From: an uncultured Bacteroidia bacterium
GTDB taxonomy: Bacteria > Bacteroidota > Bacteroidia > J057 > CALAJH01
Direction: 5' to 3'
Assembly: GCA_937922655.1 (NCBI GenBank)
Contig: CALAJH010000058.1
Coordinates: 1-64,000, forward strand
Length of the DNA stretch: 64,000 nt
Shown here: in pieces, positions 2,683 to 60,648 of the stretch
Numbering within the stretch: the first letter of the stretch is position 1
Layout: every line of letters begins with the position of its first letter
The notes under the pieces: generated by a model
What the model was told of the DNA's origin: nothing
Seen by the model: only the letters and a program-made list of their open reading frames with translations
The model's database searches: none
Made by a program: the position numbers and the translations under genes

Positions 2683-2701
2683 AACGTTTTAAGTCGGAGG
2701 T

Positions 2702-2709
2702 CAAAAATA
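2702..2709 (-). promoter_or_regulatory. -7 element of hmgA
   Basis: TATTTTTG on the minus strand, an exact match to the Bacteroidota -7 consensus TAnnTTTG, 19 bases before the hmgA ATG at 2682. Confidence 0.65.
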
Positions 2710-3120
2710 CAAAAAAAACGTTGGTGAAAAAAATTATTGTCGGTTCAAAAGCGGGTTTTGCCGTTGGGGGTCAAAAAGCTCGAAACCCACCGGCGTTTCG
2801 GCCATAAGCGTCAAACACGCAAAGTGGGGCGGTGGTAAGGTTTGTGGTTTTGTTGGGGTTCGGGGCGTTTTTCGAGTTTTTTTGGGGGAAAACGTCAAAT
2901 GATTCGTTGTTTTTTTAAGGCTTGTCCAAGGGTTGGATTGGGGCGTTTGGGGCCGGTTTGGTTTAAAGAACGGAGCGGCCCTTGGACGTAAAAATGGGAA
3001 AAGTAATGTAACAAAAAAGCGAATTTTTTTGTTGTTTTGCAACGGGAAACAGCGTTAGAAAAAACATTCATTCACAACCGTTTCATTTTTTCTCTTTGGC
3101 GCTCAAACGGCGCTTAAACC
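2710..3120. other. intergenic region between hmgA and the TPR gene, no gene seen
   Basis: About 410 AT-rich bases between divergently read genes. A 102-codon minus-strand frame (2734-3042) exists, but its product is low-complexity Pro/Thr/Lys/Arg without any fold signature, so I do not call it. I see no hairpin, tRNA or exact -7 element for the rightward gene. Confidence 0.6.
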
Positions 3121-29814: not shown

Positions 29815-30615
29815 ATGACGTGGATAGACGCGGCATGGGAGGACCGTGCGTTGTTAAAAGACGAAAAATACGCGGAGGCGATACGGGCGACGATTGCCGA
29901 ACTTGACGCGGGCCGCATACGCATCGCCCGCCCCGACGACAACGGCTCGTGGATCGTCAACGAAAGCGCCAAAAAAGCCGTGCTTTTGTATTTCGCCCTG
30001 CAAGCAAACACGACGACGACCGTCGGGCCGTTCGAATACCGGGACAAAATTCCGTTGAAAACGGGTCTGGAAAATTTGGGGGTGCGGGTGGTTCCGCCGG
30101 CGGTTTGTCGTTACGGGGCGTATTTGGCGCCGGGCGTGATACTCATGCCGAGCTATGTAAACATTGGCGCGTGGGTGGGCGAAGAGACGATGGTGGATAC
30201 GTGGGCGACGGTCGGTTCGTGCGCCCAAATCGGACGGGGGGTGCATTTGTCGGGGGGAGTGGGCATAGGCGGGGTGTTGGAGCCGCCGCAAGCCGCACCC
30301 GTCGTCATCGAGGACGGAGTGTTCGTCGGCAGTCGTTGCGTGGTCGTCGAGGGGGTGCGCGTGGGTCGCGAAGCGGTTTTGGGGGCGGGGGTGGTCTTGA
30401 CGGCCTCGACGAAAATCATCGACGCAAACACGGGCCAAGAGCATCGGGGCTACGTTCCGGCGCGTTCGGTCGTCATTCCGGCGTCGATTCCGAAAACGTT
30501 TGGCGCGGGCACGTTCCATGTTCCTTGCGCCTTGATTATCGGCGAACGCACGCCCGCAACCGACCTTAAAACCTCGCTCAATCTCACGCTTCGGGAATAT
30601 CGATTGGCCGTTTGA
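29815..30615 (+). CDS. dapD: tetrahydrodipicolinate N-succinyltransferase
   Basis: This enzyme of lysine and meso-diaminopimelate synthesis transfers succinyl from succinyl-CoA. The 266-residue chain has the DapD N-terminal helical domain and then the left-handed beta-helix: MPSYVNIGAWVGEETMVDTWATVGSCAQIGRGVHLSGGVGIGGVLEPPQAAPVVIEDGVFVGSRCVVVEGVRVG, with its hexapeptide periodicity. The substrate loop NTGQEHRG is present. The ATG at 29815 is chosen because MTWIDAAWEDR fits the family. Its TGA shares one base with the ATG of the permease-repressor fusion (TGATG), so the two are coupled. Confidence 0.94.
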   Translation: MTWIDAAWEDRALLKDEKYAEAIRATIAELDAGRIRIARPDDNGSWIVNESAKKAVLLYFALQANTTTTVGPFEYRDKIPLKTGLENLGVRVVPPAVCRYGAYLAPGVILMPSYVNIGAWVGEETMVDTWATVGSCAQIGRGVHLSGGVGIGGVLEPPQAAPVVIEDGVFVGSRCVVVEGVRVGREAVLGAGVVLTASTKIIDANTGQEHRGYVPARSVVIPASIPKTFGAGTFHVPCALIIGERTPATDLKTSLNLTLREYRLAV

Positions 30616-31895
30616 TGTGGGAGTGGATAGAGTTGTGGTGGACTTCGCCCAACGTAAGAACGGTTACGTTGGGGGTGGCGGCGCTGGCGGGGACGGCGGC
30701 ATACATCGGTAGTTTTTCGTTTTTTCGGAGCCGTTCGCTTTCGGCGGACGCGGTGGCGCACGCGGTCTTGCCCGGGGTGTGCCTTGCGTTTTTGGCAACG
30801 GGGCAGAAACATCCGGCGTTGTTGTTGTTGGGAGCGTTTGCGAGCGCGTTTCCGGCGTTGTTGTTGATTGACGCGATAGGCGCACGCACCAAAATCAAAC
30901 CCGACGCCGCCACGGCTTTGGTCTTGTCGTTTTTTTTTGGCATAGGGGTGGTGTTGCTGACGTTCGCGCAACGAGCGGGCAACGCCGCCGGTTTGGACAA
31001 ATTCCTTTTCGGACAGGCGGCGGCCCTGACCCCCACCGACGTGTACGTATTCGCGGCCATGGGCGTGGTATGCGTGGGGCTTTCACTGCTGTTTCGTAAA
31101 GCGTTGTTGGCGGTGGCGTTCGACAAAGAATACGCACGGGCGATAGGCTTGCCGGTCGGCCGTCTGGAAACGCTGATGACGGCCTTGACGGTAACGGCGG
31201 TGGTGGTGGGGGTAAGCACGGTGGGGGTGGTGTTGATGGCGGCGCTGACCCTGACGCCAACGGCGGCGGCAAGGTATTGGAGCGACAAATCGGAAAAAGT
31301 ACAGGCGTTGGCGGCGGCTTTCGGCGCGGGTTGCGGGGTTTTGGGGGCCGTCGCGTCGTTCGCCGCTCCTAAAACCCCCACCGGCCCGGCAATGGTGGTC
31401 GCCATGACCCTGCTTGCCTTCGCCTCCCTCGCCCTTTCCCCAAAAACCGGACTCGTTTCCAAAACCCTGCAAAAAATACGCAACAAAAACCGCGTTTTCG
31501 ACGAAAACATCCTCAAAACCCTATATCATCTCGGCGAAAACGACGGCAACTTTTTCGGTGAACGTTCGCTTATCGAAATCGCCCGCAAACGTCCGTTTCC
31601 GCTGTCGAAATTGGTGCGTCGGCTCGACGCCCTGACGCGACGCGGCTACGTTAAAAAACGTAACAAACTGCACTGGGAATTGACGGAAAAAGGCCACGAA
31701 TACGGCAAACGCATCACCAAACGCCATCGGCTTTGGGAAATTTATTTGTCGGAAAAGTTCGGTTTGGCGCCGGACCACGTTCACGAAGCGGCGGAGGTCA
31801 TGGAACATTTCATTACGCCCGAACTCGAAGCCGAATTGATACTCACCCTCAATCGGCCCGAACAAGACCCCCACGGCAAAAACATACCCTATTAA
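30615..31895 (+). CDS. metal ABC transporter permease fused to a DtxR/MntR-type repressor domain
   Basis: A 426-residue fusion. Residues 1-~285 form an ABC-3 family permease (ZnuB/TroC/MntB type) with eight or nine membrane helices and the landmarks LSADAVAHAVLPGVCLAF and KEYARAIGLPVGRLETLM. Residues ~290-426 form a DtxR-like module: winged helix (PLSKLVRRLDALTRRGYVKKR, WELTEKGHEYGKRI), then the metal/dimer domain HRLWEIYLSEKFGLAPDHVHEAAEVMEH with candidate ligands His371, Glu375, Glu394, Glu397, His398, ending DPHGKNIPY. This is the layout of chlamydial YtgCR, where cleavage releases an iron-dependent repressor. The ABC ATPase and binding protein are not adjacent. The ATG at 30615 overlaps the dapD stop. 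Confidence 0.88.
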   Translation: MWEWIELWWTSPNVRTVTLGVAALAGTAAYIGSFSFFRSRSLSADAVAHAVLPGVCLAFLATGQKHPALLLLGAFASAFPALLLIDAIGARTKIKPDAATALVLSFFFGIGVVLLTFAQRAGNAAGLDKFLFGQAAALTPTDVYVFAAMGVVCVGLSLLFRKALLAVAFDKEYARAIGLPVGRLETLMTALTVTAVVVGVSTVGVVLMAALTLTPTAAARYWSDKSEKVQALAAAFGAGCGVLGAVASFAAPKTPTGPAMVVAMTLLAFASLALSPKTGLVSKTLQKIRNKNRVFDENILKTLYHLGENDGNFFGERSLIEIARKRPFPLSKLVRRLDALTRRGYVKKRNKLHWELTEKGHEYGKRITKRHRLWEIYLSEKFGLAPDHVHEAAEVMEHFITPELEAELILTLNRPEQDPHGKNIPY

Positions 31896-36471: not shown

Positions 36472-38658
36472 TTACAAGTTAAATCCCAACGAAGCATAAA
36501 AACTCCTTCCGTCCGACGGCCAAATCCCCGGCCCCGGATACATCGCGGGACGCAGCGTAAAATATTGTCGATTGAAAACGTTGCTTACCCCCGCCCGCAG
36601 TGCAAAACGTTGGGCAAAGCGCCAACTTGCGTTTACGTCCCACAAATCGTAAGCCGGAACCGGCCCCGCCGTTCCGTCCTTTTTCGGCTCGCGCGTGTTC
36701 AATGCGTCCGAAAACGATTCGCCGACGTAATTGTGTTGAATCGTAACGCTTAGGTTTTTGTAATAAAACCCGATGCCGTTGCGGGTCGTCCACGTCGGCG
36801 CGGCTTCCAACCTATTGCCCGTCAAAGAACGATTTTCCCCGTTAATCACCGCGCTGCCGCGAATATAACGGGCGTTCAAATAAGCGGTGGAAGTAAAAGC
36901 CGCAACGGAAAAGCCGCGCGCCTCAATTAATTTGACTTCCAAAAACAGCTCGGCGCCAAAACTCAGGGTTGTGCCGCCGTTCGTACGTAAAATATACGTC
37001 CGGCCGTCGTCGGAGACGACGGAAACGGCGGCGATGCGATGGTCGTAGCGAAGCGTAAACACGCTTGCATCGTAAAGCATCCGATTTTTAAACAAAGCGC
37101 CGGCTACGCCCGCCTCGGCGTTTTCGCCGCGTGCGTCTTTCAAGTTTTTGTCCACGTATTCGAGCGCATTGGCGGGAACCATGTCCGCCAAGACCACGGG
37201 TCGGTACGCTTGGCAAACGCCGGCGTAAACTTTGTTCGCACCGTCGAATTTGTACTGCAACGTCAAGCCAAAGAGTGGAAAAACATGCCGTACCCGCGTC
37301 GGCAACGAGTCGTCGGGGTAATACGCCACCTTTCCCGTAACGTCCGTTATCCCCGCTTCCATCCGAAATCCGGCGTTCAACGAAAAACGTTGGGTTGGGT
37401 TGAACGTGTTTTCGACGAAAACGGCGACGTTTCGGGTTTTGTTTTGTAGGTCCCTCCCCCACCCCGGCGCCGTCAATCGTAAATCGTAATCCGTTCCCGT
37501 CGTTCCTTTGCCCAACTGAAAACGCCGTAGCCGATTGTCGATATACCGAACGCCGGCGGCCAAAGCATGGCGGCTTGCGCCCATACGATATTGATGCAAC
37601 AAACGCGCCTCGACGGTGTAACTGTTGTATCGGTCGATGTCCACCTGACGCGGCAAATACGTCCCCGTCGTCCGGTCTAGGGTGTCGGGGCGCAGGGCCG
37701 TACCGAAAAACATAACGCTTTTACGCGTACCCAACACCGCCGACGCGATGACGTTCAGACGCGTGTTTGCGGACATTCGCCAATCGAAGTGCAACGACGG
37801 AACATGGATTTCGGGGCTATAAAAATTACGCGAACGCGTGGACGCACGAGCGTTGGCGTAAAACATCGAATCGGTCAGCGGACCGGGAATTTGATACAAA
37901 TACGTCGAACGCCCCCACTCCGCCTTCAACGACATTCCGGGACGAACCACGTATTCCAAACTCGCGAATTGCGCCTCGGTATCCGACCTCGAATTTTCAC
38001 GATACCCCTCCGAAACCCGTTTGTAATAATAGGTATAGTATTTCCAACGTCCGATTTTTCCGCCGACGGCGTTGTAGGATGCGAAAAGCCCGAACGAGGC
38101 AACGGAGTTCAAACTCTCGAAACCGATTTTTTTCGTCGTATCGGGCGACTTGACAACGTAATTCAACATGCCACCGAAACCCGCACCGTATTGCAACGCC
38201 CCCGTCCCCCGCACCAACTCGATGCGCGAAACCGACTCAAGCGGCGGACTGTAATGGGCGGCGGGATAAGCGTAAACGTCGGAATTGAGCACGACATGGT
38301 TTTGACGAACGTTGTACTCCCAACTGCGGTGCGGATTCAATCCGCGCGTCGAAACGTTGATTTGGTTGCCCGTACCGTCCATGTCGTATACAAAAACGCC
38401 GGGAATTTTGGCAAAAATTTGACGCCCCGTCTTTTCGGCGTATCCGACGTTGATTTTTCCCACGTCCAAAACCTCGTTTTTTTTACCCGAAAAAATATAG
38501 GTTTCCGCAACGTCTCCCAACCGCGAAATTTCTCCGATTTGAGCTTTCGATTCCACTTTTACCGGCGAAAGCGTATGAACATGAATGCTGTCGGGCAAAT
38601 CTTGGGCAAAAGCCGAGCGCCATGCCGCCGCCGCAACCACGCATATCCATCGATGCAT
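36472..38658 (-). CDS. TonB-dependent outer-membrane receptor (FecA-like)
   Basis: A 728-residue receptor with a signal peptide (MHRWICVVAAAAWRSAFAQ), a plug domain (about 55-180: KIPGVFVYDMDGTGNQINVSTRGLNPHRSWEYNVRQN, ESVSRIELVRGTGALQYGAGFGGMLNYVVK) and a 22-strand barrel ending RQYFTLRPAMYPGPGIWPSDGRSFYASLGFNL, whose terminal aromatic pattern is typical. No carboxypeptidase-like N-terminal domain is present, so it is not SusC-like. It probably imports a ferric chelate or similar ligand with TonB-ExbBD energy. It lies 93 bases downstream of the giant repeat-protein gene on the same strand. Confidence 0.93.
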   Translation of the reverse strand: MHRWICVVAAAAWRSAFAQDLPDSIHVHTLSPVKVESKAQIGEISRLGDVAETYIFSGKKNEVLDVGKINVGYAEKTGRQIFAKIPGVFVYDMDGTGNQINVSTRGLNPHRSWEYNVRQNHVVLNSDVYAYPAAHYSPPLESVSRIELVRGTGALQYGAGFGGMLNYVVKSPDTTKKIGFESLNSVASFGLFASYNAVGGKIGRWKYYTYYYKRVSEGYRENSRSDTEAQFASLEYVVRPGMSLKAEWGRSTYLYQIPGPLTDSMFYANARASTRSRNFYSPEIHVPSLHFDWRMSANTRLNVIASAVLGTRKSVMFFGTALRPDTLDRTTGTYLPRQVDIDRYNSYTVEARLLHQYRMGASRHALAAGVRYIDNRLRRFQLGKGTTGTDYDLRLTAPGWGRDLQNKTRNVAVFVENTFNPTQRFSLNAGFRMEAGITDVTGKVAYYPDDSLPTRVRHVFPLFGLTLQYKFDGANKVYAGVCQAYRPVVLADMVPANALEYVDKNLKDARGENAEAGVAGALFKNRMLYDASVFTLRYDHRIAAVSVVSDDGRTYILRTNGGTTLSFGAELFLEVKLIEARGFSVAAFTSTAYLNARYIRGSAVINGENRSLTGNRLEAAPTWTTRNGIGFYYKNLSVTIQHNYVGESFSDALNTREPKKDGTAGPVPAYDLWDVNASWRFAQRFALRAGVSNVFNRQYFTLRPAMYPGPGIWPSDGRSFYASLGFNL

Positions 38659-38751
38659 CGTCGTGTCGATAACTTTTTTACGAAGCTCCCCTAAACGCGC
38701 CACCCCCCGTTGGCACGGAGGGCGGCGACGTAAACGAAATTTTACAACCGT

Positions 38752-41700
38752 TTACTCAACGACCAACTTGGAGGTTTGAGCGCCTTCGGCGCTTTCAAAG
38801 CGCAGAACGTACAAACCTTTGGCCAAACCGTTGAGGTCGAGCATGACGCGGTTTTCGCCGCGTTCGACGTTCAATTGCGTCGCGTAAACGGCTTTGCCCG
38901 ACAAATCCATGACCGTAACCGTCGCACGACCGTCGGCTTTCGCGCCAAAGGCCAACCAAACGTCGCCTTTCGACGGGTTCGGGTAAACGTAAAGCGACGA
39001 AAGTTCGTCGGCCATATCGGCGTTGTCGGCCAAACGGCAATTGACGCCCGTGCCGCGCACCACGACACGATAGTCGCTGTAATAGCCCAGATAACGCATA
39101 CGGGCCTTGAATTCGTATTCGCCCGCTTGCAGCGGCAAAGTGATTTGCGCTTGGTCGACGCCCGTCAGGTTCACGGTCTGCCACTGGGCGCCCGGCTGGT
39201 TGCGACGATACATCAACTCAAACTGATTGACGACAAAAAGCGCGTTCACATCCGTAAGCCGTACCAAAGTCGTGGCACAGTTGTCGGTGATGGAAATCGC
39301 CGGCGGAGCGTAGGTCGATATTTGGGCGATGTCCGAAGCTTGACGGGCTCCGCAACCGCAATCCACCTCCGCGTACACGTCGTAGACGGCGCCGGGGGTC
39401 AAATTATTGACCGAAAACTCGTTCGTCGTCGAAAAGCCCAGAGGCGAAAATCCACTCGCACCCGTCAATCGTATAAACCAATAGTACGTTACCGCACCCG
39501 GAACGTTCGTGGCGACAATCCGCCCGCTCGTATGGCTGATGACGTTAAAGCCAATGACCGCGGGTTTGACGCAGCCTGCGGGAAGCGGGGTCGTTACCTC
39601 TTGGGTCGTTTGACATTCGGCGACGTCCATTACGCGTATGGTATACGTTACCCCGCAACCCAAGCCTTCGATGCGCAACGGGAAGGTGTCCGTCGCCACC
39701 TCAAACGCCGTATTCGGCCCCGTAACGCGAACCATGTAAGGCGTTCTTTGCGCGTCGTAGTTGTTCACCGCCACGGTAACGACCCCGGCCTGCGGGTTGA
39801 AGGCCAATTGCGGCGGGCCCGCCACCGTAATCGTCGTCAATTGCGTACGCGTACACGAACCCACGCCCGGCGTCGTTACCGTCGCTTCCACGCGATAGGT
39901 CGTCGTCGCCAACGGGCTTATCGTTATCGAAGGACCTTGACCCACTTGTTGGTTCGTCGCGTTGTCGAACCATACGTAGCTTTGACCGCCCGAGGCCGTC
40001 AACGTTACCGACGTACCCAAGCAAACGTTCGTTGCGGACGCGGTAACCGACAGGTTCGGCGCGGGAATAACCGTCACTTTCACCGTTTTCATCACGCCGC
40101 ACCCGTTGGCAAGATATCCGTACACGGAGAATACCGTTGTTTGGGCGGGCGAAACGGTGTAAAAGGCGTTGGTATTCTGCGCTTGGTTGACGAGCGGCAA
40201 CCACTCATAGCTCGTCGCACCCGACGCTTGCAACGTAACCGATTCTCCGGCGCAAAGCACAAGGTCGTTGGTTACCGTCAAGTTCGGCGTTTCGTTTACC
40301 GTAAGGGTAAACGTCCGGCTCCTTTCGCAACCCAACTCCGTACGGCCCGTTACGGTGTAGGTCGTCGTTGTTTCGGGCGTAAGCTCGAAGAACGTCGGCA
40401 CGGACATCGTTTGCGTGCCGTAACTCAGCGTATACGTGTTAATGGCCGGCGTTTGGGTCAGCAATACCTGAACAGGCTCGCCGCGACATATAATATTGTC
40501 GCTGACGACGACGTTAAAGTTCGCCGACGGACGGACGACCACCGTTATCGTTTCCTCGTCCGTACAACCGAACGCCGTTCCGACGAGCGTGTAGGTCGTC
40601 GTGCCGACGGGCGGAACAAGCGTCAATTCCCTCAGGTTCGGTCCCGATTGTTGGATAATGCCGTTCGGCCCGGGACGGCGCCAAGTGTAAAGGGTTGCGT
40701 TGCCCGTCGCCGTCAAGCGGAGGGTATCGCCGCCGCAAAGGTAGGTTTCATTGGCCGAAAGTTGAACGTCCACGCTATTGACCGTAACCACGGCGGTATC
40801 CGTCGAAAGACATCCGTTCGGCCCCACGCCCGTAACGTAATAGTTCGTCGTTTGGGTCGGTGAAACGACTATCGTCGCTCCAACGCCAATCGCCGTTCCG
40901 TTCGGGCCGTACCATGTATATGCCGTTGCGCCCGTCGCTTCCAACGTTGCGCTTTCGCCCACGCATATCGTCGGATTGGAAACGGCTTCCGTCAATTGCG
41001 GCGCGTTGATAACCTGCACCGTTATCGTCGCCGTATCCGTGCATCCGCCCAAATACGTGCCAATGACGGTGTAAGTCGTAGTGGCGGGGGGCGTGGCCAC
41101 CACCGTTGCGGCGGTCGTCGTATTCAAATACGTTGCCGGCGACCAAAGATACGTTTCCGCGCCAAAAGCGCTCAAAACCGCGTAACTGTTCGAACACATG
41201 ACGTAAACGTCCGTATTCGTTTCCAATACCGGGTGCGGATCGACGGTAACGTGAATCGTCGCCGTCGATACGCAGCCGTTCAACGACGTGCCGGTAACGG
41301 TATAGGTCGTGCTGACCAAGGGCGTGGCCATCACCGAAGAACCCGTCGTGGCGCTCAAACCCGTCGCCGGAGACCATTCGTACGTATACGCCCCGTTGGC
41401 CGTCAGTTCTATCGTCGCGCCCTGACAAATCGAACGGGCTTCGCCAACGACAAGTTGCGGCAACGGTTCGACAAACACAACCGCGTTCGCTACCGACGTA
41501 CATCCGTTCAAATCGGTGGCCGTCACGGTGTAAATCGTTGTGTTTTCGGGAGAAACGACGACGGTGCCGCCGTTGTTTTGCAGAATTCCTTGCGTCGGCG
41601 CCCAAACGTAAAACGCCGAACCGCCCGCTATCAACGTCGTCAGTTGTCCGCGACAAATTTGCACTTCGGGCTGGGTTACAAAAACTTGCGCCGGTTCTAT

Positions 41701-44700
41701 GACCTCGAACGTAAGCGTTCTTTGAGCGGTACAACCGTTGTTGTCCGTGGCGGTAACGGTATAGGTCGTCGTCGTTTGCGGGGAAACAAAAGCTATCGAA
41801 CCGTCGGCGATGGGAACGTTCAAACCGGTCGTCGGTTGCCAAACGTAGGTCAATTGCGACGACGTACCGAGTTGAACGGCCGCGCCTTCTCCGCGACAAA
41901 ACGTGTAACGCGTAACCGTATCGACGACGATGACGGGTATTTGCGGAACGACGGTGTACGCCGTTTCGGACAAACAGTCGTCGATACCGCCGCGAAGCAC
42001 ATAACTCGCGGGCGTCGTCCCCACGGGAACGGCAATGCTCGGCCCGAAAACCAAGAAATTGTCGTCGGCATCGTACCATTCATAGAACTGCGACGCGCCC
42101 GACGCGGTCAAAGTCACCACGTCTCCGTCGCACACGGGCAAGCGGTCGGGCGTAATCGTCAAGACGGGTTCGGGATGAATGACCACGTTCACCGTCCGCG
42201 TCAAAGTACATCCCTCGCCGTAAGGAACGCTAACGGAATAGGGATAAACGCCGGGTTGGTCGTGGACGATTTGTATGGTGGCGCCGTTGGAAGCGTTGCT
42301 CCACGTATAAAATACGCCGCCCGTCGCGGTCAGGGTCAAGGGTTGGCCGGTACAACCCGACGGATTGGCGGGCGTAATCGCCAACGCGGGTTCGTTGTAT
42401 ATTTTTACGCGAATAGTTGCCGTACTCGAACAGTTCAATCCCGAGCGGGTAACGGAATAAACCGTTTCGGTCGTCGGCGATACGGTAACGGTTTGGCCCA
42501 CGCCGTTGGCGGGGTCGATGGCCGAAAGCGGCAACCACTGATAATTGGCGCCCGAAGGTCCCGACGCCGTAAGCTGAATCGAATTGCCGCGACATATCGT
42601 TACCTCGCCGTTCAGCGCTCCGGGCGCCGATATCGTTACCGCGCTAACGGGGTCGACGGTGACGGGAATTTCTATCGTCGATTCACAACCGTTCGAGGTG
42701 CGTCCAACCACCGTGTACGTCGTGGCCACAAGCGGTTGAACCACGGCCGTACCCCCGTTGGTGGATACGATGCCCGCGCCCGACCACGTAAACGACGTTA
42801 CGTTCGGACCAAAAACCAAAAGATTCGCCGTGCCGCCGACACACACCGACGTTTGCGACGGGTTGGCGGTCAATACCGGCGCGTCGTCCACGACTATCAC
42901 CACCGTATCCTCGCCGAAACATCCCGTTCCCGAAACGTCGTGCGCCACCAAAGTATAAACCGTCGTCGTTTCGGGGAAAACGACGTAAACGGGAGTGTTG
43001 CCGCCGGGCAAAAGACCGTTCGGTCCGAACCATTGATACGTCCAAGAACCCGAACCCGTCGAATTCAACTGCGTGCTTTGTCCCTGACAAATGCGATACT
43101 TCGTCGCCGTGGCCAGCGCCGGCGGCGCGGCCACGGTTTGCAGCGTAAACGTCGCCATGCCCGTACAACCGTTTGCGTCTTCGCCGTAAACGCTGTAAGT
43201 CGTCGTCGCGGAAGGCGAAACGGTGAGAACGTCGCCCGTGAAAACTTGCTGGCCGCTCGACGTGTTCCAATACCAATGATACGAACCGGATACGCCGCCG
43301 TTGGCCGTCAGATTGGCCGTTTCGCCGGGGCAAAGCACGGGGTCGTCGGCGGTGACGGTAAGGGTCGGGAGGTTGCGCACCACCACCGTTACCACGTCCG
43401 AACCAACACAACCCGTTTCGGGATTGCGCCCGCGGACGGTGTAGGTCGTCGTTACCAACGGTGCGGCCGTAACCACGTTGCCGAACGTGGCGCTCAAACC
43501 CGTCGAAGGTTGCCAATTGTATATGCCCGCACCCGAACCCTCGGCGCCCACAACGGTCAGGGTCGTGCTTTCGCCGCGACATATATATACCTCGTTGCCT
43601 ATCGGCGTTTGGTTGTCCAAACTTTCGACCAATTCCACCAACGGCGGCTCCTCGACGTTAATCGTTATGACGTCGGTGGCGACGCAACCGAAAGTATTGG
43701 TACCCGTAACGGTGTAAGTCGTCGAAACTTGCGGGGTAATTTTTATCGTTACGCAGTTGGACGGGCCGATGCAGGTAAAGTTTTGGTCGTTATCGGCGGC
43801 CCAAGAAAACTGCGTGGCGCCTCGGGCACGGAGTATCAACGATTGTCCGCGACAAATCGTCGTGGCGATAGGCGGCAGAATTTGAACGGGCGGATAGGGA
43901 CGCACTATAACCGTAACGGTGGTACGCACCGTACAAACGTCCGTATTGTACGCCGTAACGGTGTAAGTCGTCGTCGTTTCGGGGGACAAGGTCATCGGGT
44001 TGCCCGTAAACGTGATTCCGTCGGGGCGGGTCCATTCCACCCACTCGAAGGGCGTGTTTCCGGAGATTTGAGCGGCCGTCAAAGTCGTGGACGTCTCCGG
44101 ACATATAACGCGACTGCCCGTAACCACAATGTTGTTGCCGACGGTATTGTTCACTCGAACCTCGACCGTGGAGGTGGAACTACATCCCGAGGCGTCTATG
44201 GCGCGAACGGTAAAGTTCACGGTTTCCGTCGGGCGGGCGGTAACGGTGGCGCCGACCGCGTCGCCCACCATATACAACGTTGGTTGCCATTGGTAGGTAA
44301 ACGGCCCGCCGTTGGAACTCGTGGCGGCGGCGGTGAGCGTTACCGTTTCCCCGCCGCAGATAAGGTTGTCGTTGACGGTGGCGGCGACCGACGGGCGTTC
44401 CAATACCGTAACCGTAACCGTTTGCGTGGTTTTGCAACCCGTTCCCGCGCCCGTTCCCACGACCGTATACACCGAGGTAAAGAGGGGGGTAACGGCAATC
44501 GAGGGCGTGGCGACGCTCATACCGTTGGGATAGGTCCAGATAAACGAACCGTTGCCCACGGCGGCGAGGGTCGTGGTTTCACCGCGACAAACGGCGAAGT
44601 TGTTGTCGGTTCCCGTCGTGGTCGAGGTAACGTTGAAAACAAAGTCTTCGAACACCTCCAACGTCGCTTGGGCGGTGGAGACGCAACCGTTCAAATCGGT

Positions 44701-47700
44701 CAAAGTAACGGTATAAGTCGTAATGCCGGGTTCGTGCGCCGCGAGTTCAACCACCGTTTGGTTGGTCAATCCCGCAAACGACGCCGGGCCGCGATTGGAC
44801 GTCCATTCGGCCGTGGCGACGTCGGCGTCCGTAAAGGCTTCGAGCAAGAGCGTTTGGCCGACGCAACGCTTCATTTTCGTCCAAGTCAAATCAATGACGG
44901 GCGGGGTGTAAACGCGAACGTTCAATTCGGCGTAGGCCTCGCAACCGTCGGCGCTTAAACCGCGCAAATTGTAATAACCGTCGAAAACCAATCCCGAAAC
45001 GTTCAAGGTGTTGGTGGTAGAGACGATGTTTCCGAAACCGTCGGTCCAAAGGTATTCGGCGGCGCCCGAAGCGGTATAGGTCGCCGAATTTTGCGTCAAT
45101 GAGTTGGCGGCGCAAATGCCCGCCGGGCCGTCGATGGTCAAATTCGGCGGCAACAACACTTCGACGTTCACGACCGCAACATTCGTACAACCATTGACAT
45201 CCGTGCCCGTAACGCGGTAAGCGCTGTTTTGAAGCGGGGCAACGGTATAATTGTTTCCATTTTGGACGCCGGCGTAAAGCGGGTCGAGCGATTCCCAAAG
45301 ATAAGACACGGCGCCCGCCGCCGTCAGCGTCGTCGAAAGACCGCGACAAACCCGCACCGTTTCTCCTTGCAATATTCTTACGTTCGGCGGTTGGCTGACC
45401 GAAACCGTATAATTAACGTTGGTTTCGCAACCGGTAACCACGTCGCGAACGTTGAGACGATAGCCGTTGAACTCGGCCGTCGGAGAAACGTTCAAATACG
45501 GATATCCGCCCAAAAGCGTTCCTTCCTCGTCAAACCAACGATATTCGTAGGTCGTCACCAAAGGATCGACCTGCGCCGACTCCAACTGCGCCGTTTGCCC
45601 CTGACAAATATTGTGAACGGGGACGTTGGTGTAAACGGCGGGCGGGTCGAAAACGTTTATCGTTGTCGAGGCCATGGCCGCGCATTGGTTTTCGACGAAC
45701 GCCGTCAAATAATACGTCGTCGTTTGAAGGGGAAACACCGTTACATCGGCGCTTCCCAATCCGACGACGTTGCCGTTGTCGTCGAGCCATGTAAATTCAC
45801 CGGGGGTAAACGTACAACCGTTCAAGCATTGGGCGCTTAATTCAACGGCCGTTTGCGGACAAACCTGCGTCGAACTCGCGGAAACGGCAATCGTACCGTC
45901 GAACTGCGGGCCGTTGACCGTAAACGTTTCTTCAATTGCGTTGATGCATCCGAAAATATCCGTTCCTTGCAGACGTATGACGATGGTTTCGTTGGAAAGC
46001 GGACGCAAAACGAGTTGATTGCCCCCGACGGCCGCATCGGCGTTGCCTTGCAACAACGACCATTGATAAGTCGAGGCGCCCGTTGCCGCCAACGTATAAG
46101 TATTGCCGACGCAAAGATTGTTGGGGCCGACGATGTCGAGCGTCGGCAGGGGATTGACGGAAACAAATGCGGGCGAAGAGGTTTCACATCCCGTGGCCAA
46201 GTCGGTAACGATGCACGTGTACTCGGTTACGCCGACGGGCGGCGCGGCGTTAAAAACAAAACCCGCGCCGACGGGGTTGCCCGCCTTAAGCCAAATTATC
46301 GAAGCTTGGGCGGCGTTGGTAACGGCCGTCAAATTGACTGATTGGCCGTCGCATATCACCGCCGGATTCGGCGTAACGTTGAGCGTCGGCAAGGCCAAGA
46401 CCTGTACGTTGATGGCGGCGGTGGCCTGACAACCGTTGGCGTCGGTTACCGTAACGGAAAACGTCGATGCGCCGATACCCGAAGGCAGAACTTCGACTTG
46501 GTCGGGCGCAAGGGTGGAAACAATCAAACCGGCGGGTTGAAAATCGTACGATACGCCCGTCGGAGACGTGGCCGTCAAAACGACCGTCGTTCCAAAACAC
46601 GGCGTATCGTCGTCGGCCGAAAGCGATACCGTCGGAAGCGGATTGACGTTTACCGTCACGACGTCGGAATTTTGACAGTCGTTCGCATCCACAACCGTAA
46701 CGGTGTAAACGGTGGTGAATTGGGCGGAGGCGGTGGGGTTGGGGACAAACGGATTGGAAAGGCCCGCCGACGGCGCCCATGCGTACGTCAAACCCGACAC
46801 GGAGGAGTTGGCGCCGAGTTGGAAGGTTTCGCCCGCGCAAACGTCGTTGTCCGAAACGGTCGCGGCGACGTCGGGCAATGCGTTGCGCACCACGGTAACG
46901 GTCGTGCGGTTGTTGCACTGGGCCGTTGCGTCGTAACCGACAAGGGTATAAACCCGCGTGCCCACGGGCGGATTGACCACCAACGTGGACAACGTCCCGA
47001 TGGGCAAGGGCGAGGTTTCGTCGTACCATTCGTAAAACGCGGCGTTCGACCCCGTCAATAGGGCCGTCGAACCGTCGTTGCACAAAACGGGGCGGTCGGC
47101 AGAGGCGGCCACGAGCGGATAGGGGTCGACGTTCACCGTCACGGTGGCCGTATTCGAACATGCGGCCGTCAACGAGGTGTTGGAAAAAGTATAAGTCGTC
47201 GTTCCCGTTACGGTATAGACCGTCGTCGTCGAGGGATTGACGGAAAACGTCGCACCCGTGAAGGTTTGCCCCGTCGGGGTGGTCCATACGTAATCGGTGT
47301 TCAAGACGGTTTCGGGATTGTAGGCGACCAAATCTATCGTTCTTCCGGTACAAATGTTTTTCGTGGCTCCGCCGACGACAGCGATTTGGGGTGCGGGATT
47401 GACGACGACTTGGGCGTTGAAGGCGGCGGTGCAGCTCGTGGCCACGTCCGTTACCGTCAGGGTGTAGACGGTGGTGGCGGTTGGGGTCACGGCGACGTTG
47501 GGGCCGACCAACGCCCCCGGATTCCAGACGTATTGATATCCCGGCGACGGAGCGTCCACGGACAGCAAAGCCTGTTCACCCAAACATATCGGCACGACGG
47601 GTTCGGTTATCGTTGCGGTGGGGGCGGCAATTTCGGTAAGGGTAACCGTGGCCTGACCCGCGCATTGACCGTTGATAAAACCGGTGGCGACGTAGCTCGT

Positions 47701-49857
47701 CGTGCCGTCGACGGTCGCGGTAACCGTGGCCCCGGTGGTTGCGGACAGCCCGCCGGCGCCCGACTTGGTCCACGTTACGTTGGCGAAGGTGCATGCGTTG
47801 GGACAAACGGCCGTCAAAACGATGTTGGCGCCCCGGCAACCCTCGATGGCGGAAGCATTGATAAGAATGGTGGCGGCGGGGTCTTGCGCGGCGGTGAGGG
47901 TGAGGTTGGCGGTGGCGGTGCAACTGAAGTTGTCCGTGCCGGTTAAAACAACGTTGTACGTTCCTTCAAAAGCGGGGGTCAAAGTAAAGGTACCGCCCGT
48001 TGCCGTTTGTCCCGTTTCGACGACGCTCCATGTATACGTATTGGCGCCGGAAGCGACCAATATCGCCGGGGCGCCCAAACAAATATTCGTTCCGCCGGGC
48101 GCGTCGATGGTCACCGTCGGCGGGGTTTGGACATTGACCGTCGCCACGGCCGTGGTAACGCAACCGGTGGTCGTGTGGGTGGCGGTAACGGTATAGGTCG
48201 TGGTCGCGGCCGGATTGACGGTAACGCTCGCGTCGTTGGCAAACGTTCCCGAACCGGCGTCCCATGCATAAACGACGTTGGGCAGGTTGGTGGCGTTCAA
48301 AGTTACGCCCGTGCTTTGGCCCAAACACAAATTGGGGTTGTTGGGCGTAACGATAACGGCGGGGTTGGCATTGACCAGAACGCTTACCGTCGCGGTGGCG
48401 GTGCAACCGTTGCCGTCGGTGGCGGTAACGGTGTAGGTGGTCGTGGCCGACGGCGCGGCGTTCGGATTTTGCGCCGTGGGGTTGTCCAATCCCGTTACGG
48501 GCAACCAAGAATAAGTTACAAAACCCGCGCTTGCGTTGAGGGTCGTCGAACCGCCCGCGCAAAGCTCGTTGTCGGCGGCGACGGCCTCAAGCGGCGCATT
48601 CGGTTCGACGACAATCGTCACCGAAACGGTTTTGGTTTGGCAGGTCGAATTGGCGGCGGTAACGGTAAAGGTGCGCACGCCCGCTTGGTTGCAGCGAATA
48701 GAAACGGATTGAGCGTTGGTGGCGGAAACAAAATCGGCGCTACTGACGTCCGTCGTCCATGAGTAGGAACTAAAACCCGGCGAGGCGGAAAGCGTGAAAG
48801 TCGAACCCCGGCAAACGAACGCGGGCTGGGGGGTGACGTCCAAGGGCAGGTCGGCGCGTTTGTGGACGGTGATGTTTTGGTAGGTCGGGCAACCGTTTTC
48901 CGGGTCGACGCCCGTAACGGTGTACGTAACGCTTTGGGCAAACGCCGTTGCGGGAATGTTCGTTTCGATAATCGAATTGTAGGTGCCGGACTGCGAACCG
49001 ACGTAAGCCGCCGGTTCCCACGTAAATTGGGTGTTAAACGGCGTGGGCGTACCCGAAACGCTGATTATCGCCTCTTGGTCGGGACAAAGGGGGGCGGCGG
49101 GCGAGGTGGCGGGCGACGACGTCGGCGCCGCGAACGTCGGGCCGTTGACCGGTATCATTTGCGCCGAAAGCGCACGCGAACATCCGTTCGGCAAAGTCAC
49201 CGTTACGTTGATGGTAAAGGTCGTGGTTGTCGTCGGGCGAATCAAGACCGTCGGTTGGTTGTTGAAACCTTGAATAATGACGGGCGTGGCGGGCGCGGTC
49301 GACCATGCGTAGGTCGTACCGGCGGGAAACGGATTGCCGTCCGAATCCAAAACTTGGTATTCGGTCGTTTCGTTGACGCACGCGGTATTGGGGCTGGTTC
49401 CCGGAACGACTTTCGAAATCGCGCCCGAGGGCGTGGGATTGACGGTAACGACCAAATCGTTGGAGGCAACGACGACCGACGAAGTCGAAGGATTGAAGAC
49501 CTCGGCGGTATACGTTCCGGCCTGCGACAATTGCACCCCGCCCGTAAAGACGAAGTCGTAGTTGGCGGTCGTGGTGGCGGTGACGGGCAGGGTCATGACC
49601 ACCGTACCGTTTTGCAACAAATTCACTTGATAACCCACGGCGATGGTGGGTGCGACGTTGGGGTTGGAAATCGTCGCGCGCAAGGTAAGCGCGGCGCCGG
49701 CGCAGGCGTTTGCGCTGCCGGTCTGCACGGTCAAAGCAATGTTGGCATTAACGGCGCCAACGGACGGGGGCGACGCTTCGGGCGCGAGAACGGCCCACGC
49801 CGCACTTCCCCACCCCGTCAACAGCCACACAAGGGCCGCAATCAATGGTTTCATCAT
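38752..49857 (-). CDS. giant T9SS-exported surface protein with about 40 tandem Ig-like units
   Basis: A single uninterrupted 3701-residue frame. It has a signal peptide (MMKPLIAALVWLLTGWGSAAWA), then about 40 units of ~83 residues (to about residue 3350), two or three divergent Fn3/Ig-like units, and a C-terminal T9SS sorting domain (last ~80 residues: LYVYPNPSKGDVWLAF, then VMDLSGKAVY, LNGLAKGLYVLRF, SKLVVE). Each unit starts near an xCxGxxxxL motif and ends with TTTYTVTaTdxNGC plus VxVxPxP, so two cysteines ~60 apart could form an intra-unit disulfide. This suggests a long, rigid stalk or adhesin. The sorting domain is type A-like rather than the gliding-adhesin type. The start is one of two adjacent ATGs (49857, 49854); an in-frame TTG at 49869 is less likely. 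Confidence 0.93.
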   Translation of the reverse strand: MMKPLIAALVWLLTGWGSAAWAVLAPEASPPSVGAVNANIALTVQTGSANACAGAALTLRATISNPNVAPTIAVGYQVNLLQNGTVVMTLPVTATTTANYDFVFTGGVQLSQAGTYTAEVFNPSTSSVVVASNDLVVTVNPTPSGAISKVVPGTSPNTACVNETTEYQVLDSDGNPFPAGTTYAWSTAPATPVIIQGFNNQPTVLIRPTTTTTFTINVTVTLPNGCSRALSAQMIPVNGPTFAAPTSSPATSPAAPLCPDQEAIISVSGTPTPFNTQFTWEPAAYVGSQSGTYNSIIETNIPATAFAQSVTYTVTGVDPENGCPTYQNITVHKRADLPLDVTPQPAFVCRGSTFTLSASPGFSSYSWTTDVSSADFVSATNAQSVSIRCNQAGVRTFTVTAANSTCQTKTVSVTIVVEPNAPLEAVAADNELCAGGSTTLNASAGFVTYSWLPVTGLDNPTAQNPNAAPSATTTYTVTATDGNGCTATATVSVLVNANPAVIVTPNNPNLCLGQSTGVTLNATNLPNVVYAWDAGSGTFANDASVTVNPAATTTYTVTATHTTTGCVTTAVATVNVQTPPTVTIDAPGGTNICLGAPAILVASGANTYTWSVVETGQTATGGTFTLTPAFEGTYNVVLTGTDNFSCTATANLTLTAAQDPAATILINASAIEGCRGANIVLTAVCPNACTFANVTWTKSGAGGLSATTGATVTATVDGTTSYVATGFINGQCAGQATVTLTEIAAPTATITEPVVPICLGEQALLSVDAPSPGYQYVWNPGALVGPNVAVTPTATTVYTLTVTDVATSCTAAFNAQVVVNPAPQIAVVGGATKNICTGRTIDLVAYNPETVLNTDYVWTTPTGQTFTGATFSVNPSTTTVYTVTGTTTYTFSNTSLTAACSNTATVTVNVDPYPLVAASADRPVLCNDGSTALLTGSNAAFYEWYDETSPLPIGTLSTLVVNPPVGTRVYTLVGYDATAQCNNRTTVTVVRNALPDVAATVSDNDVCAGETFQLGANSSVSGLTYAWAPSAGLSNPFVPNPTASAQFTTVYTVTVVDANDCQNSDVVTVNVNPLPTVSLSADDDTPCFGTTVVLTATSPTGVSYDFQPAGLIVSTLAPDQVEVLPSGIGASTFSVTVTDANGCQATAAINVQVLALPTLNVTPNPAVICDGQSVNLTAVTNAAQASIIWLKAGNPVGAGFVFNAAPPVGVTEYTCIVTDLATGCETSSPAFVSVNPLPTLDIVGPNNLCVGNTYTLAATGASTYQWSLLQGNADAAVGGNQLVLRPLSNETIVIRLQGTDIFGCINAIEETFTVNGPQFDGTIAVSASSTQVCPQTAVELSAQCLNGCTFTPGEFTWLDDNGNVVGLGSADVTVFPLQTTTYYLTAFVENQCAAMASTTINVFDPPAVYTNVPVHNICQGQTAQLESAQVDPLVTTYEYRWFDEEGTLLGGYPYLNVSPTAEFNGYRLNVRDVVTGCETNVNYTVSVSQPPNVRILQGETVRVCRGLSTTLTAAGAVSYLWESLDPLYAGVQNGNNYTVAPLQNSAYRVTGTDVNGCTNVAVVNVEVLLPPNLTIDGPAGICAANSLTQNSATYTASGAAEYLWTDGFGNIVSTTNTLNVSGLVFDGYYNLRGLSADGCEAYAELNVRVYTPPVIDLTWTKMKRCVGQTLLLEAFTDADVATAEWTSNRGPASFAGLTNQTVVELAAHEPGITTYTVTLTDLNGCVSTAQATLEVFEDFVFNVTSTTTGTDNNFAVCRGETTTLAAVGNGSFIWTYPNGMSVATPSIAVTPLFTSVYTVVGTGAGTGCKTTQTVTVTVLERPSVAATVNDNLICGGETVTLTAAATSSNGGPFTYQWQPTLYMVGDAVGATVTARPTETVNFTVRAIDASGCSSTSTVEVRVNNTVGNNIVVTGSRVICPETSTTLTAAQISGNTPFEWVEWTRPDGITFTGNPMTLSPETTTTYTVTAYNTDVCTVRTTVTVIVRPYPPVQILPPIATTICRGQSLILRARGATQFSWAADNDQNFTCIGPSNCVTIKITPQVSTTYTVTGTNTFGCVATDVITINVEEPPLVELVESLDNQTPIGNEVYICRGESTTLTVVGAEGSGAGIYNWQPSTGLSATFGNVVTAAPLVTTTYTVRGRNPETGCVGSDVVTVVVRNLPTLTVTADDPVLCPGETANLTANGGVSGSYHWYWNTSSGQQVFTGDVLTVSPSATTTYSVYGEDANGCTGMATFTLQTVAAPPALATATKYRICQGQSTQLNSTGSGSWTYQWFGPNGLLPGGNTPVYVVFPETTTVYTLVAHDVSGTGCFGEDTVVIVVDDAPVLTANPSQTSVCVGGTANLLVFGPNVTSFTWSGAGIVSTNGGTAVVQPLVATTYTVVGRTSNGCESTIEIPVTVDPVSAVTISAPGALNGEVTICRGNSIQLTASGPSGANYQWLPLSAIDPANGVGQTVTVSPTTETVYSVTRSGLNCSSTATIRVKIYNEPALAITPANPSGCTGQPLTLTATGGVFYTWSNASNGATIQIVHDQPGVYPYSVSVPYGEGCTLTRTVNVVIHPEPVLTITPDRLPVCDGDVVTLTASGASQFYEWYDADDNFLVFGPSIAVPVGTTPASYVLRGGIDDCLSETAYTVVPQIPVIVVDTVTRYTFCRGEGAAVQLGTSSQLTYVWQPTTGLNVPIADGSIAFVSPQTTTTYTVTATDNNGCTAQRTLTFEVIEPAQVFVTQPEVQICRGQLTTLIAGGSAFYVWAPTQGILQNNGGTVVVSPENTTIYTVTATDLNGCTSVANAVVFVEPLPQLVVGEARSICQGATIELTANGAYTYEWSPATGLSATTGSSVMATPLVSTTYTVTGTSLNGCVSTATIHVTVDPHPVLETNTDVYVMCSNSYAVLSAFGAETYLWSPATYLNTTTAATVVATPPATTTYTVIGTYLGGCTDTATITVQVINAPQLTEAVSNPTICVGESATLEATGATAYTWYGPNGTAIGVGATIVVSPTQTTNYYVTGVGPNGCLSTDTAVVTVNSVDVQLSANETYLCGGDTLRLTATGNATLYTWRRPGPNGIIQQSGPNLRELTLVPPVGTTTYTLVGTAFGCTDEETITVVVRPSANFNVVVSDNIICRGEPVQVLLTQTPAINTYTLSYGTQTMSVPTFFELTPETTTTYTVTGRTELGCERSRTFTLTVNETPNLTVTNDLVLCAGESVTLQASGATSYEWLPLVNQAQNTNAFYTVSPAQTTVFSVYGYLANGCGVMKTVKVTVIPAPNLSVTASATNVCLGTSVTLTASGGQSYVWFDNATNQQVGQGPSITISPLATTTYRVEATVTTPGVGSCTRTQLTTITVAGPPQLAFNPQAGVVTVAVNNYDAQRTPYMVRVTGPNTAFEVATDTFPLRIEGLGCGVTYTIRVMDVAECQTTQEVTTPLPAGCVKPAVIGFNVISHTSGRIVATNVPGAVTYYWFIRLTGASGFSPLGFSTTNEFSVNNLTPGAVYDVYAEVDCGCGARQASDIAQISTYAPPAISITDNCATTLVRLTDVNALFVVNQFELMYRRNQPGAQWQTVNLTGVDQAQITLPLQAGEYEFKARMRYLGYYSDYRVVVRGTGVNCRLADNADMADELSSLYVYPNPSKGDVWLAFGAKADGRATVTVMDLSGKAVYATQLNVERGENRVMLDLNGLAKGLYVLRFESAEGAQTSKLVVE
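38755..38994 (-). other. T9SS C-terminal sorting domain coding segment
   Basis: It codes the last ~80 residues of the giant protein, with the three signature blocks YPNPSKG, LSGKAVY and GLYVLRF. In T9SS cargo this beta-sandwich is recognised at the outer membrane and removed when the protein is anchored or released. Confidence 0.9.
39801..49745 (-). repeat. protein-level tandem repeat array, about 40 units of ~250 bases
   Basis: By manual segmentation I count about 40 units. Conserved positions are the first Cys (CxG), a central Y-x-W, the TTTYTV strand and the second Cys (GC). At DNA level the units are strongly diverged and I see no long identical copies, so recent unit amplification is not evident. 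Confidence 0.85.
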
Positions 49858-57602: not shown

Positions 57603-57690
57603 CCGTCAATTTTTTAGCCGAAAAATCCCCACAACCAACATTAGCCTATAAGGGATAAGTCCGGCAGTGGGCCGGCAAAGCACGAGAGAT

Positions 57691-60648
57691 ATGAAAAATA
57701 AAAACGTGTATATTACCCTTCTGGTAATATTCTTGAGTTTGTGCGTTTACAATATTGTCTGCACGGGCATTCGTTTGGCCAAAGACGCGGAACTCAACGA
57801 GCTTTCGTCTGAAGAACGCGCCGCCAAACTCGCCGACAAAGACTACAACGAAAGTTACAAGTTCGTCGTAAACCGGTCGTTGTCGTTGGGTCTGGACCTG
57901 CAAGGCGGTATGTATGTAACGATGCAAATCGCCGTCGAAGACATTTTACAAAATTTGGCGAAAAAGAACGCCGACAGCACGTTTGTCGCCGCGATACGCG
58001 CCGCAAGCAAGGCGCGCGAGTCGGCCAACCGTCCTTACGTCGACCTTTTCTACGAACAGCTCCAAAAAATCAAGCCGGGCAAACGCTTGGCCGATTATTT
58101 CGGGGGCGAACGCACGGGCCTGTCCTACAACGCCACCGACGACGAAGTCAAAGCCAAACTCCGCGAAATCGTCGAAACGTCGATTAAGAACAGCTACACC
58201 GTTATTCGCACGCGCATCGACCAATTCGGGGTGGCGTCGCCGGACGTGCAGCGCGAAGAAGGCACGGGCCGCATTTTGATACAACTTCCGGGGGTCAAGG
58301 ACGCCGACCGCGTACGCAAACTTTTGCGCGGAACGGCCAACCTCGAATTTTGGCCGACCTACACCCTCGAACAATTCTTCCCCTACCTCCAAAAAATCAA
58401 CGAGCGCGTCAAACTCCAACAAACGGCCGACCAAGCCGTCGAAGGCGAGAAAAAACAAACCGCCGACGACAAAAACAATGCTCAAAAAGATACGCTCGCC
58501 GATTCTACCGCCGTCGCCAAAGCTCAAACCGACACCCTCGACTCGGCCGCCGTCGCCAAAATGTCCGACGAAGAAAAACGCGAACTCTTCAAAAAAGAAA
58601 ATCCGTTTTTTGCGCTTTGCGACTTTCGCATCGCGGGCAATCCCCAAAACAACCAGCCGATGATGGGCTATACGCTCGTCAGCGACACGGCCAAGGTCAA
58701 TCGCATTCTCAACGACCCCGAAATTCGCCGCATACTGCCTTCGGACGTATTGTTTTTCTGGTCCGCCAAACCCGTTTCCGACGAAGCCCAATACTTTACG
58801 CTTTACGCCATCAAGGGCAACCGCGACGGTCAGGCGGCGCTCAACGGTTCGGCCATCGTCGACGCCCGCGAAGACAAAGACCAATTCAAACAAAACGTCG
58901 TTTCGATGACCATGAACACCGAAGGGGCGCGGATTTGGAAAAAAATGACCCAAGACAACCTCGGAAAATCGGTGGCCATCGTTTTGGACAACCTCGTTTA
59001 TACCGCCCCGACGGTGCAAAGCGTAATCACCAACGGCTCTTCGCAAATCACGGGAAGCTTTACGATAGAAGAAGCCAAAGACTTGGCCAACATCCTCAAA
59101 GCGGGCAAATTGGATGCGCCGGCCCGCATCGAAGGCGAAGAGGTCGTCGGGCCGACGCTCGGCGCCGAAACCGTACGCCGCGGCTTTATTTCGTTTTTGG
59201 CCGGCTTTGTCGGCGTAATTTTGTTTATGTTGGTCTATTACAAAAAAGCCGGCGTGGTGGCGGGCATCGCCTTGGTGTTCAACCTCGTTTTTATCGTCGG
59301 CATCGCGTCGGCGCTCAACGTGGTGCTCAACCTTCCGGGCATCGCGGGCATCGTCTTAACGATGGGTATGGCCGTGGACGCCAACGTACTTATCTACGAA
59401 AGAATACGCGAAGAATTGGAGGCGGGCAAGAGCCAAAAAGGTTCGATTGCCGGCGGCTTTGGCGGCGCGTTTTCCGCCATATTGGACGGCAACCTGACGA
59501 CCTTCCTTACCGGCGCCATTCTTTATATTTTTGGTTCGGGCTTGATTCGCGGGTTTGCGGTCATGTTGATGATAGGCATCGCGACCACGCTCGTTACGGG
59601 GCTGCTCGTTACCCGCCTGATTTTGGATTACATGACCTCGAAAAGAGAAGCGCAAATCGACTTTGGCTCCAGAGCGGCCGTCGCCTTCTTTAAACGCGTC
59701 AATTTTCAATTTATCGAAAAACGCAAAATCAGCTTCGCGGTGGCCGGGGTGATTGCCGCAATATTCCTGCTCCTGATAACCAGCGGCGGATTTAAATACG
59801 GCGTGGACTTTTTGGGCGGACGACAATACGTAGTCGAATTCGCCTCGCCGCCCGACGTCGACCGCCTTCGCGCCGAACTTTCCAAAAACTTCAAAAGCGA
59901 ACCGCAAATCAAAACCATCGGCGGCAGCAACCAAGTCATGATAACGACGACGTTCAAACTCGGTGAACAAGACGCGGACGACGCGGTCAAAACCGCTCTG
60001 CTCGCCGGATGCGAAGCGGCGGCGCCCGGCTCCAAACCCACCGTCCTCAGAACGACCAACGTCGGCCCCACCGTCGCCGAAGACATCAAGGAAGGCGCAC
60101 GCTACGCCATATTCTTTTCCCTCTTGGGAATGTTCCTTTATATTTTGTTGCGATTCAGGGGTTGGCAGTTCGGTTTGGGCGCAACGATTTCCTTGGCCTT
60201 CAACGTCGTTTTCGTTTTGGGACTTTTTTCCTTGTTCAGCCTTTTGCCGTCCTTTCCGTTTTCGATTGAAGTGGACGCGGCGCTCATCGCCTCGATATTG
60301 ACCATCGTCGGCTATACCATCAACGACACCGTCGTCGTCTTCGACCGCATACGCGAATACACCGAAGGAGCGAGCGGAAAAACGCCCCTCACCGAACTCT
60401 TCAACAAAGCCATCAATTCGACTTTGAGCCGGACGCTCATCACTTCCACCACCACCCTCATCACCGCATTGATTCTATTTCTTTTCGGCGGGGAGGTGTT
60501 GCGTGGTTTTATGTTCGCCTTGATGGTCGGGGTGCTGGTCGGTACGTTCTCTTCGATTTTCATCGCCAGTCCACTGACCTTGCAATTCATTTTAATGAAA
60601 CCGACGCGGGCGCAGTTGCCGGCCGCCGCCGCCGTACAAAAGTCTTAA
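57691..60648 (+). CDS. secDF: protein translocase subunits SecD and SecF fused (SecDF)
   Basis: A 985-residue inner-membrane protein that uses the proton gradient to help Sec substrates leave the translocon. The SecD half has an N-terminal helix, the SLGLDLQGGMYVTMQ motif, a large periplasmic region (with a charged Lys/Asp-rich insertion about residues 260-300), and six helices with GMAVDANVLIYERIREEL. The SecF half begins about residue 665 with KYGVDFLGGRQYVVEF and carries INDTVVVFDRIREYT. The fused form is usual in Bacteroidota. The ATG at 57691 is preferred over an upstream GTG at 57667. Confidence 0.96.
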   Translation: MKNKNVYITLLVIFLSLCVYNIVCTGIRLAKDAELNELSSEERAAKLADKDYNESYKFVVNRSLSLGLDLQGGMYVTMQIAVEDILQNLAKKNADSTFVAAIRAASKARESANRPYVDLFYEQLQKIKPGKRLADYFGGERTGLSYNATDDEVKAKLREIVETSIKNSYTVIRTRIDQFGVASPDVQREEGTGRILIQLPGVKDADRVRKLLRGTANLEFWPTYTLEQFFPYLQKINERVKLQQTADQAVEGEKKQTADDKNNAQKDTLADSTAVAKAQTDTLDSAAVAKMSDEEKRELFKKENPFFALCDFRIAGNPQNNQPMMGYTLVSDTAKVNRILNDPEIRRILPSDVLFFWSAKPVSDEAQYFTLYAIKGNRDGQAALNGSAIVDAREDKDQFKQNVVSMTMNTEGARIWKKMTQDNLGKSVAIVLDNLVYTAPTVQSVITNGSSQITGSFTIEEAKDLANILKAGKLDAPARIEGEEVVGPTLGAETVRRGFISFLAGFVGVILFMLVYYKKAGVVAGIALVFNLVFIVGIASALNVVLNLPGIAGIVLTMGMAVDANVLIYERIREELEAGKSQKGSIAGGFGGAFSAILDGNLTTFLTGAILYIFGSGLIRGFAVMLMIGIATTLVTGLLVTRLILDYMTSKREAQIDFGSRAAVAFFKRVNFQFIEKRKISFAVAGVIAAIFLLLITSGGFKYGVDFLGGRQYVVEFASPPDVDRLRAELSKNFKSEPQIKTIGGSNQVMITTTFKLGEQDADDAVKTALLAGCEAAAPGSKPTVLRTTNVGPTVAEDIKEGARYAIFFSLLGMFLYILLRFRGWQFGLGATISLAFNVVFVLGLFSLFSLLPSFPFSIEVDAALIASILTIVGYTINDTVVVFDRIREYTEGASGKTPLTELFNKAINSTLSRTLITSTTTLITALILFLFGGEVLRGFMFALMVGVLVGTFSSIFIASPLTLQFILMKPTRAQLPAAAAVQKS

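Follow-up and report, generated by a model that had tools for sequence, protein, structure and literature searches.

The window analysed here is a 64,000-nucleotide stretch of DNA from an uncultured Bacteroidia bacterium, in which the gene at positions 38752–49857 encodes a 3701-residue protein, P0001, built from tandem units with two conserved cysteines each (C1, the first of the unit, and C2, the second). The question that this locus raises is which of these cysteines pair with one another, and what kind of surface structure the pairing would produce. We found that the gene is a single open reading frame on the minus strand, starting with an ATG at 49857 and running through 3701 uninterrupted codons, with its stop at 38752–38754; read on the plus strand in the matching frame, the same interval is broken up by stops. 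The gene described by the first-pass annotation is real and its reading frame intact, with the correction that it is coded on the minus strand. The signal peptide is plain on inspection by eye (MKPLIAALVWLLTGWGSAAWA), and the C-terminus scores above the cut-offs of both PF18962 (Por_Secre_tail, 50.2 bits versus 27) and TIGR04183 (39.7 versus 23), which bears out the Sec signal peptide and type A sorting domain that had been assigned (Table 1). Between the two, Pfam recognised Ig_7 (PF19081) alone. The translocon gene SprA of the type IX secretion system (T9SS) is present in the host genome (SprA_N, 431.7 bits), and together with the signal peptide and the sorting domain it supports, at the level of sequence, the proposed route of Sec export followed by T9SS. 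No Bacteroidota promoter motif (TAnnTTTG) was found upstream of the P0001 gene on the gene's strand.

Table 1. Coordinates of the parts of P0001 and of the adjacent receptor gene in the window.
Feature	Residues	Window positions	Strand	Basis or remark
Sec signal peptide	1–22	49792..49857	(-)	sequence MMKPLIAALVWLLTGWGSAAWA|V, judged by eye
N-terminal Ig/CARDB-like capping domain, C1 = Cys52, without C2	30–143	49429..49770	(-)	low-confidence model, pLDDT about 40–70
39 Ig_7 units, each with C1 (ICxG) and C2 (NGC)	144–3358	39784..49428	(-)	Pfam and own-unit HMM
FN3-like domains, the first with a C2-like Cys3415 and without C1	3359–3623	38989..39783	(-)	fn3 below cut-off
T9SS type A sorting domain	3624–3701	38755..38988	(-)	PF18962 and TIGR04183 above cut-offs
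TonB-dependent receptor ORF		36472..38703	(-)	same strand as P0001, 48 bases downstream

The repeated unit is Ig_7 ('Ig-like domain CHU_C associated') by Pfam (286.6 bits, cut-off 27.3), and P0001 belongs to a well-known kind of protein, the giant T9SS stalks made of Ig_7. An HMM built from the protein's own units confidently picked out 39 of them within residues 158–3351, with a C1-to-C1 spacing of about 82 residues, and gave 3 matches in total across 50 shuffled P0001 sequences used as a control. The repeat is thus regular, and the first-pass estimate of about 40 units resolves into 39 Ig_7 units plus one degenerate N-terminal Ig/CARDB-like domain with the first cysteine only. The first-pass observation of one cysteine near the start of the unit and one near the end holds for 39/39 Ig_7 units, with C1 in or close to the motif ICxG and C2 in or close to NGC, where about 0.2 units would be expected from composition. 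Pairwise identity between units averages 29%, and a higher-order period is absent, so that the array is old; recent duplication of units was rejected on the top identity of 53% and the lack of a preferred lag. Further cysteines are scattered through the protein. Close pairs occur in three units (685/689, 1344/1348 and 2029/2035), and in two of these the additional cysteines form a CxxxC pair at the same place, CPNAC at residues 685–689 (window 47791–47805) and CLNGC at 1344–1348 (45814–45828), which from their sequence look as if they were inherited from a common ancestor unit. Cys389 and Cys1215 have no obvious partner, and the FN3-like region has six further cysteines (3401, 3429, 3500, 3502, 3527 and 3607). 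A search of named genomes with the C-terminal 353 residues found no relatives of this segment, and in related genomes nothing beyond the sorting domain and a weak FN3-like similarity was matched.

P0001 is ordinary for its group, since Ig_7 is present in 39/40 related genomes and at least seven other long arrays are encoded in the same genome. The host genome, a draft of 3.58 Mb, contains at least 145 Ig_7 matches, at least 125 type A and at least 30 type B sorting domains, and among the other host genes with at least 20 Ig_7 units six end in type B and one in type A. The statement that such proteins usually end in a type B domain holds as a trend (6/8 host arrays of at least 20 units), but Ig_7 arrays that end in type A occur often here: this is a minority choice for the longest arrays, and not a rare one. 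The host genome (G000) has many giant surface-protein genes, which lie on contigs C30, C33, C76, C1, C64 and C24 (loci L056–L062) and reach 5212 codons. A 4.1 Mb relative of the same order (G004) has open frames of up to 7941 codons and, on a preliminary count, 2073 Ig_7 candidates, a number well above that of every other relative searched. CHU_C is present in 144/149 genomes sampled. A search of the host genome for the oxidases VKOR (PF07884) and DsbB (PF02600) returned no recognisable match, despite the very many conserved cysteine pairs in its exported proteins. Within the window, a conserved link between P0001 and the adjacent TonB receptor was rejected, as an Ig_7 gene lies nearby at 2/20 loci of receptor relatives; the receptor is probably unrelated to P0001 in function. 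Its named relatives (about 50% identity) belong to Cytophagales, Saprospiraceae and Chitinophagales, which puts the host broadly within Bacteroidota. Elsewhere in the window, an open reading frame at 30612–31895 (+) combines in one protein a metal permease domain of ABC-3 type and the metal-binding domain of an iron-dependent repressor, and a fused SecDF gene, part of the Sec route that P0001 would use, lies at 57667–60645 (+).

The ends of arrays discriminate between ways of pairing the cysteines. If C1 of unit n pairs with C2 of unit n+1, the last unit of an array needs no C1 and the first unit needs no C2, whereas pairing within a unit should leave array ends resembling the array middle. 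We sampled 41 units that directly precede a T9SS sorting domain, from the host genome and other genomes of the class. C1 was absent and C2 kept in 36/41 of these last units, while C1 was absent in 8/207 inner units of the same reading frames (Fisher p about 4e-30, or about 5e-22 for units scoring at least 20 bits, values that overstate the number of independent events because several of the sampled proteins are homologues of one another). In all five last units with C1 retained, an extra cysteine follows the unit ahead of the sorting domain, as against 0/36 of the others (p 1e-6). At the opposite end, the first unit after the signal peptide has C1, no C2 and no extra cysteine in P0001 and at loci L248, L250, L159, L260, L281, L282, L289 and L291. 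At L278 and L286 it is likewise of the type with C1 and without C2, plus an additional cysteine elsewhere in the domain. First units with C1, C2 and an extra cysteine at or near the mature N-terminus were found at L106, L107, L268, L272, L274 and L072, and none of the first units examined had both C1 and C2 but no extra cysteine. The SprB-type repeats (CxGxxDGSI...VTDANGC) at L248, L250, L268, L272 and L274 follow the same rule at their array ends as Ig_7.

Losses of cysteines inside arrays were then compared in anchored windows across arrays of the host genome and its relatives. C1 of unit n and C2 of unit n+1 are lost together (odds ratio 89, p 7e-5), and no co-loss was detectable between the C1 and C2 that share a unit (odds ratio 4.6, p 0.23) or between C2 of unit n and C1 of unit n+1 (p 0.12). 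At L071, the unit that comes after a domain lacking C1 lacks C2. At L061, L057 and L074, a linker cysteine lies right after a unit that lacks C1, in the same place as the extra cysteine before sorting domains. In 7/10 internal cases in which C1(n) is absent and C2(n+1) present there is no linker cysteine, some of these cases being alignment slips or a run of N. Judged from sequence, the losses agree with a match of the far end of domain n to the near end of the domain after it, and disagree with the other two ways of pairing nearest neighbours.

Where the two cysteines would sit in the fold was taken from a structure model of four units (residues 2636–2955, pLDDT 88, with non-overlapping rows as the alignment input). 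By its predicted strands, C1 lies at the end of a short strand A' just before strand B, and C2 immediately precedes the last strand, G. An Ig-like Greek key has its A/B turn at one end and its F/G turn at the other, which should keep C1 and C2 of a single unit well apart, and the model suggests that C1(n) should instead face C2(n+1) across the domain junction. Partners within a unit would be kept or lost together and lie close in the fold; the loss statistics and the predicted strands show neither. The first-pass proposal of one C1–C2 disulfide per unit therefore finds no support, as the predicted strands put C1 at one end of the fold and C2 at the other, and the statistics of array ends and co-loss favour pairing between neighbours.

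These observations led us to the reading that P0001 is a type A surface stalk of the Sec/T9SS route whose neighbouring domains are stapled by C1(n)–C2(n+1) disulfides into a stiff rod, to which we assign a probability of about 0.75. The protein would be exported by Sec and then by the type IX secretion system, with the type A signal sorting it to the cell surface, and C1 of unit n, in the A/B turn at the far end, would bond with C2 of unit n+1, in the F/G turn at the near end. Most likely this would give about 40 inter-domain staples. The C1(n)/C2(n+1) pairs of P0001 can be named (Cys52–Cys226, Cys160–Cys323 ... Cys3202–Cys3335, Cys3279–Cys3415); they are 40 in number and would link 41 domains in a row. 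A filament of 49 domains measures about 180 nm, hence about 3.7 nm per domain (PMC13319060), and on that figure the P0001 stalk would reach roughly 150 nm, as a rod that the staples would make resistant to bending and pulling. Disulfides would thereby play in P0001 the role that calcium plays between the domains of RTX adhesins and cadherins.

The nearest solved relative of P0001 belongs to a known appendage. The best PDB sequence match is grappling hook protein A (GhpA) of Aureispira sp. CCB-QB1, a protein of 5898 residues (PDB 9FLP and others); the P0001 unit profile matches it at 762 bits in at least 46 stretches, every ~83 residues from about residue 1155, and the best eight matches of a fold search with the four-unit model are all fragments of the GhpA shaft. 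GhpA, too, is T9SS-exported and has a long shaft of Ig-like units with the same C1/C2 motif. It differs in ending in a CHU_C type B domain (5814–5890) with a cysteine directly before it, and in the roughly 1150 residues that precede its Ig_7 array, where the P0001 array begins within 158 residues of the N-terminus. GhpA forms a heptamer (PMC13319060). P0001 resembles the GhpA shaft, yet is without two defining features of GhpA, the type B domain and the N-terminal head. The stalk role suggested earlier is in line with this architecture, but the adhesin role stays a guess: a fibrillar adhesin, by definition, combines stalk domains with one or more recognised adhesive domains (PMC8286594), and P0001 falls outside that definition, as the Pfam search found no adhesive domain in it. 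As a binding domain was not found at the N-terminus, the distal end, we call P0001 a stalk and leave its partner unnamed.

Other giant surface proteins share part of this design. Ig_7-rich CHU_C proteins and SprB-type gliding adhesins likewise have tandem Ig-like units, each with an early and a late cysteine, but they differ in their type B sorting and SprF anchoring (PMC12635249), and with its type A domain P0001 does not qualify as an SprB-type gliding adhesin. PorV handles type A substrates, which P. gingivalis attaches to A-LPS (PMC11205867), so the P0001 stalk is unlikely to ride on an SprF-borne gliding track. RTX adhesins, which are exported by type I secretion, provide a further comparison. 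Their extender domains also form a tandem beta-sandwich stalk stiffened at its junctions, by calcium in the linkers and not by covalent bonds (PMC7493085). The giant adhesin of Mobiluncus mulieris is a tandem Ig-like protein with covalent cross-links, but its ester, isopeptide and disulfide links lie inside each domain (PMC10619420), whereas those of P0001 are predicted between domains. A phage origin of P0001 was rejected, as PHROGs tail and head matches reflect shared Ig-like domains and the phage homologues in the PDB are without the cysteines. Two relatives of the units, the phage tail and Ig-like domain proteins of PDB chains 9ncf_S and 9c2d_S, have neither cysteine, which indicates that the fold does not need them.

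Three other readings of the cysteines and the stalk were weighed. Each unit could be closed by its own C1–C2 disulfide, leaving the lone end cysteines spare or cross-linking different molecules. Nearly every inner unit does have both cysteines, and canonical Ig domains carry an internal disulfide. That bond, however, runs from strand B to strand F across the core, in contrast with the A/B and F/G turn positions of C1 and C2. Loss of C1 is also not coupled to loss of C2 in the same unit, either inside arrays or at their ends, and a bond within the unit does not predict the extra cysteine that accompanies C1 in last units. We regard this reading as highly improbable. Only slightly less improbable is that C1(n) and C2(n+1) are adjacent without being bonded, the cysteines being reduced or binding a metal or cofactor at each junction. 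The genome's lack of a recognisable DsbB or VKOR would suit such an arrangement, and the rule at array ends shows merely that the two positions belong together. A single cysteine pair without conserved His or Asp neighbours would nevertheless make a poor metal site, and P0001, from its sorting signals, would be exposed outside the cell. The gliding relative F. johnsoniae does make disulfides in its envelope (PMC12635249), which argues against reduced cysteines and means that the absence of VKOR and DsbB does not exclude bonds.

The remaining alternative concerns the assembly and is compatible with the staples: P0001 may assemble with further chains, side by side, into an appendage that resembles the heptameric GhpA hook. 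That the GhpA shaft is made from the same domain family, and supplies the top fold matches, speaks for this arrangement, while the missing N-terminal head, the type A in place of a type B sorting domain, and a chain about 2200 residues shorter than GhpA speak against it, and we consider it unlikely.

What sets P0001 apart is the wiring of cysteines between domains, which from the sequences of dozens of relatives points to a covalent variant of a stiffened stalk. The literature searched, which did not include the GhpA paper, gave no description of inter-domain disulfides in these repeats. If bonds between domains are real, they would represent a third way of building such structures, beside the calcium junctions of RTX adhesins and the intra-domain bonds of Mobiluncus, and stalks with covalently bonded neighbours would be rods and not chains of beads. 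Because a staple can close only after the following domain has folded next to it, T9SS passage and bond formation would be coupled, and this would raise a question of export and oxidation in a genome without the usual oxidases. We lean towards C1(n)–C2(n+1) stapling as a general principle of T9SS-exported Ig_7 and SprB-type repeats across the class, including GhpA, the gliding adhesins and at least one organism without a recognisable DsbB or VKOR. The distribution of Ig_7 stalk and CHU_C domains throughout the class would give stapling, if true, a broad reach. It would then be a covalent counterpart of calcium-stiffened stalks, and would matter for load-bearing in grappling hooks, gliding adhesins and long surface proteins of other kinds.
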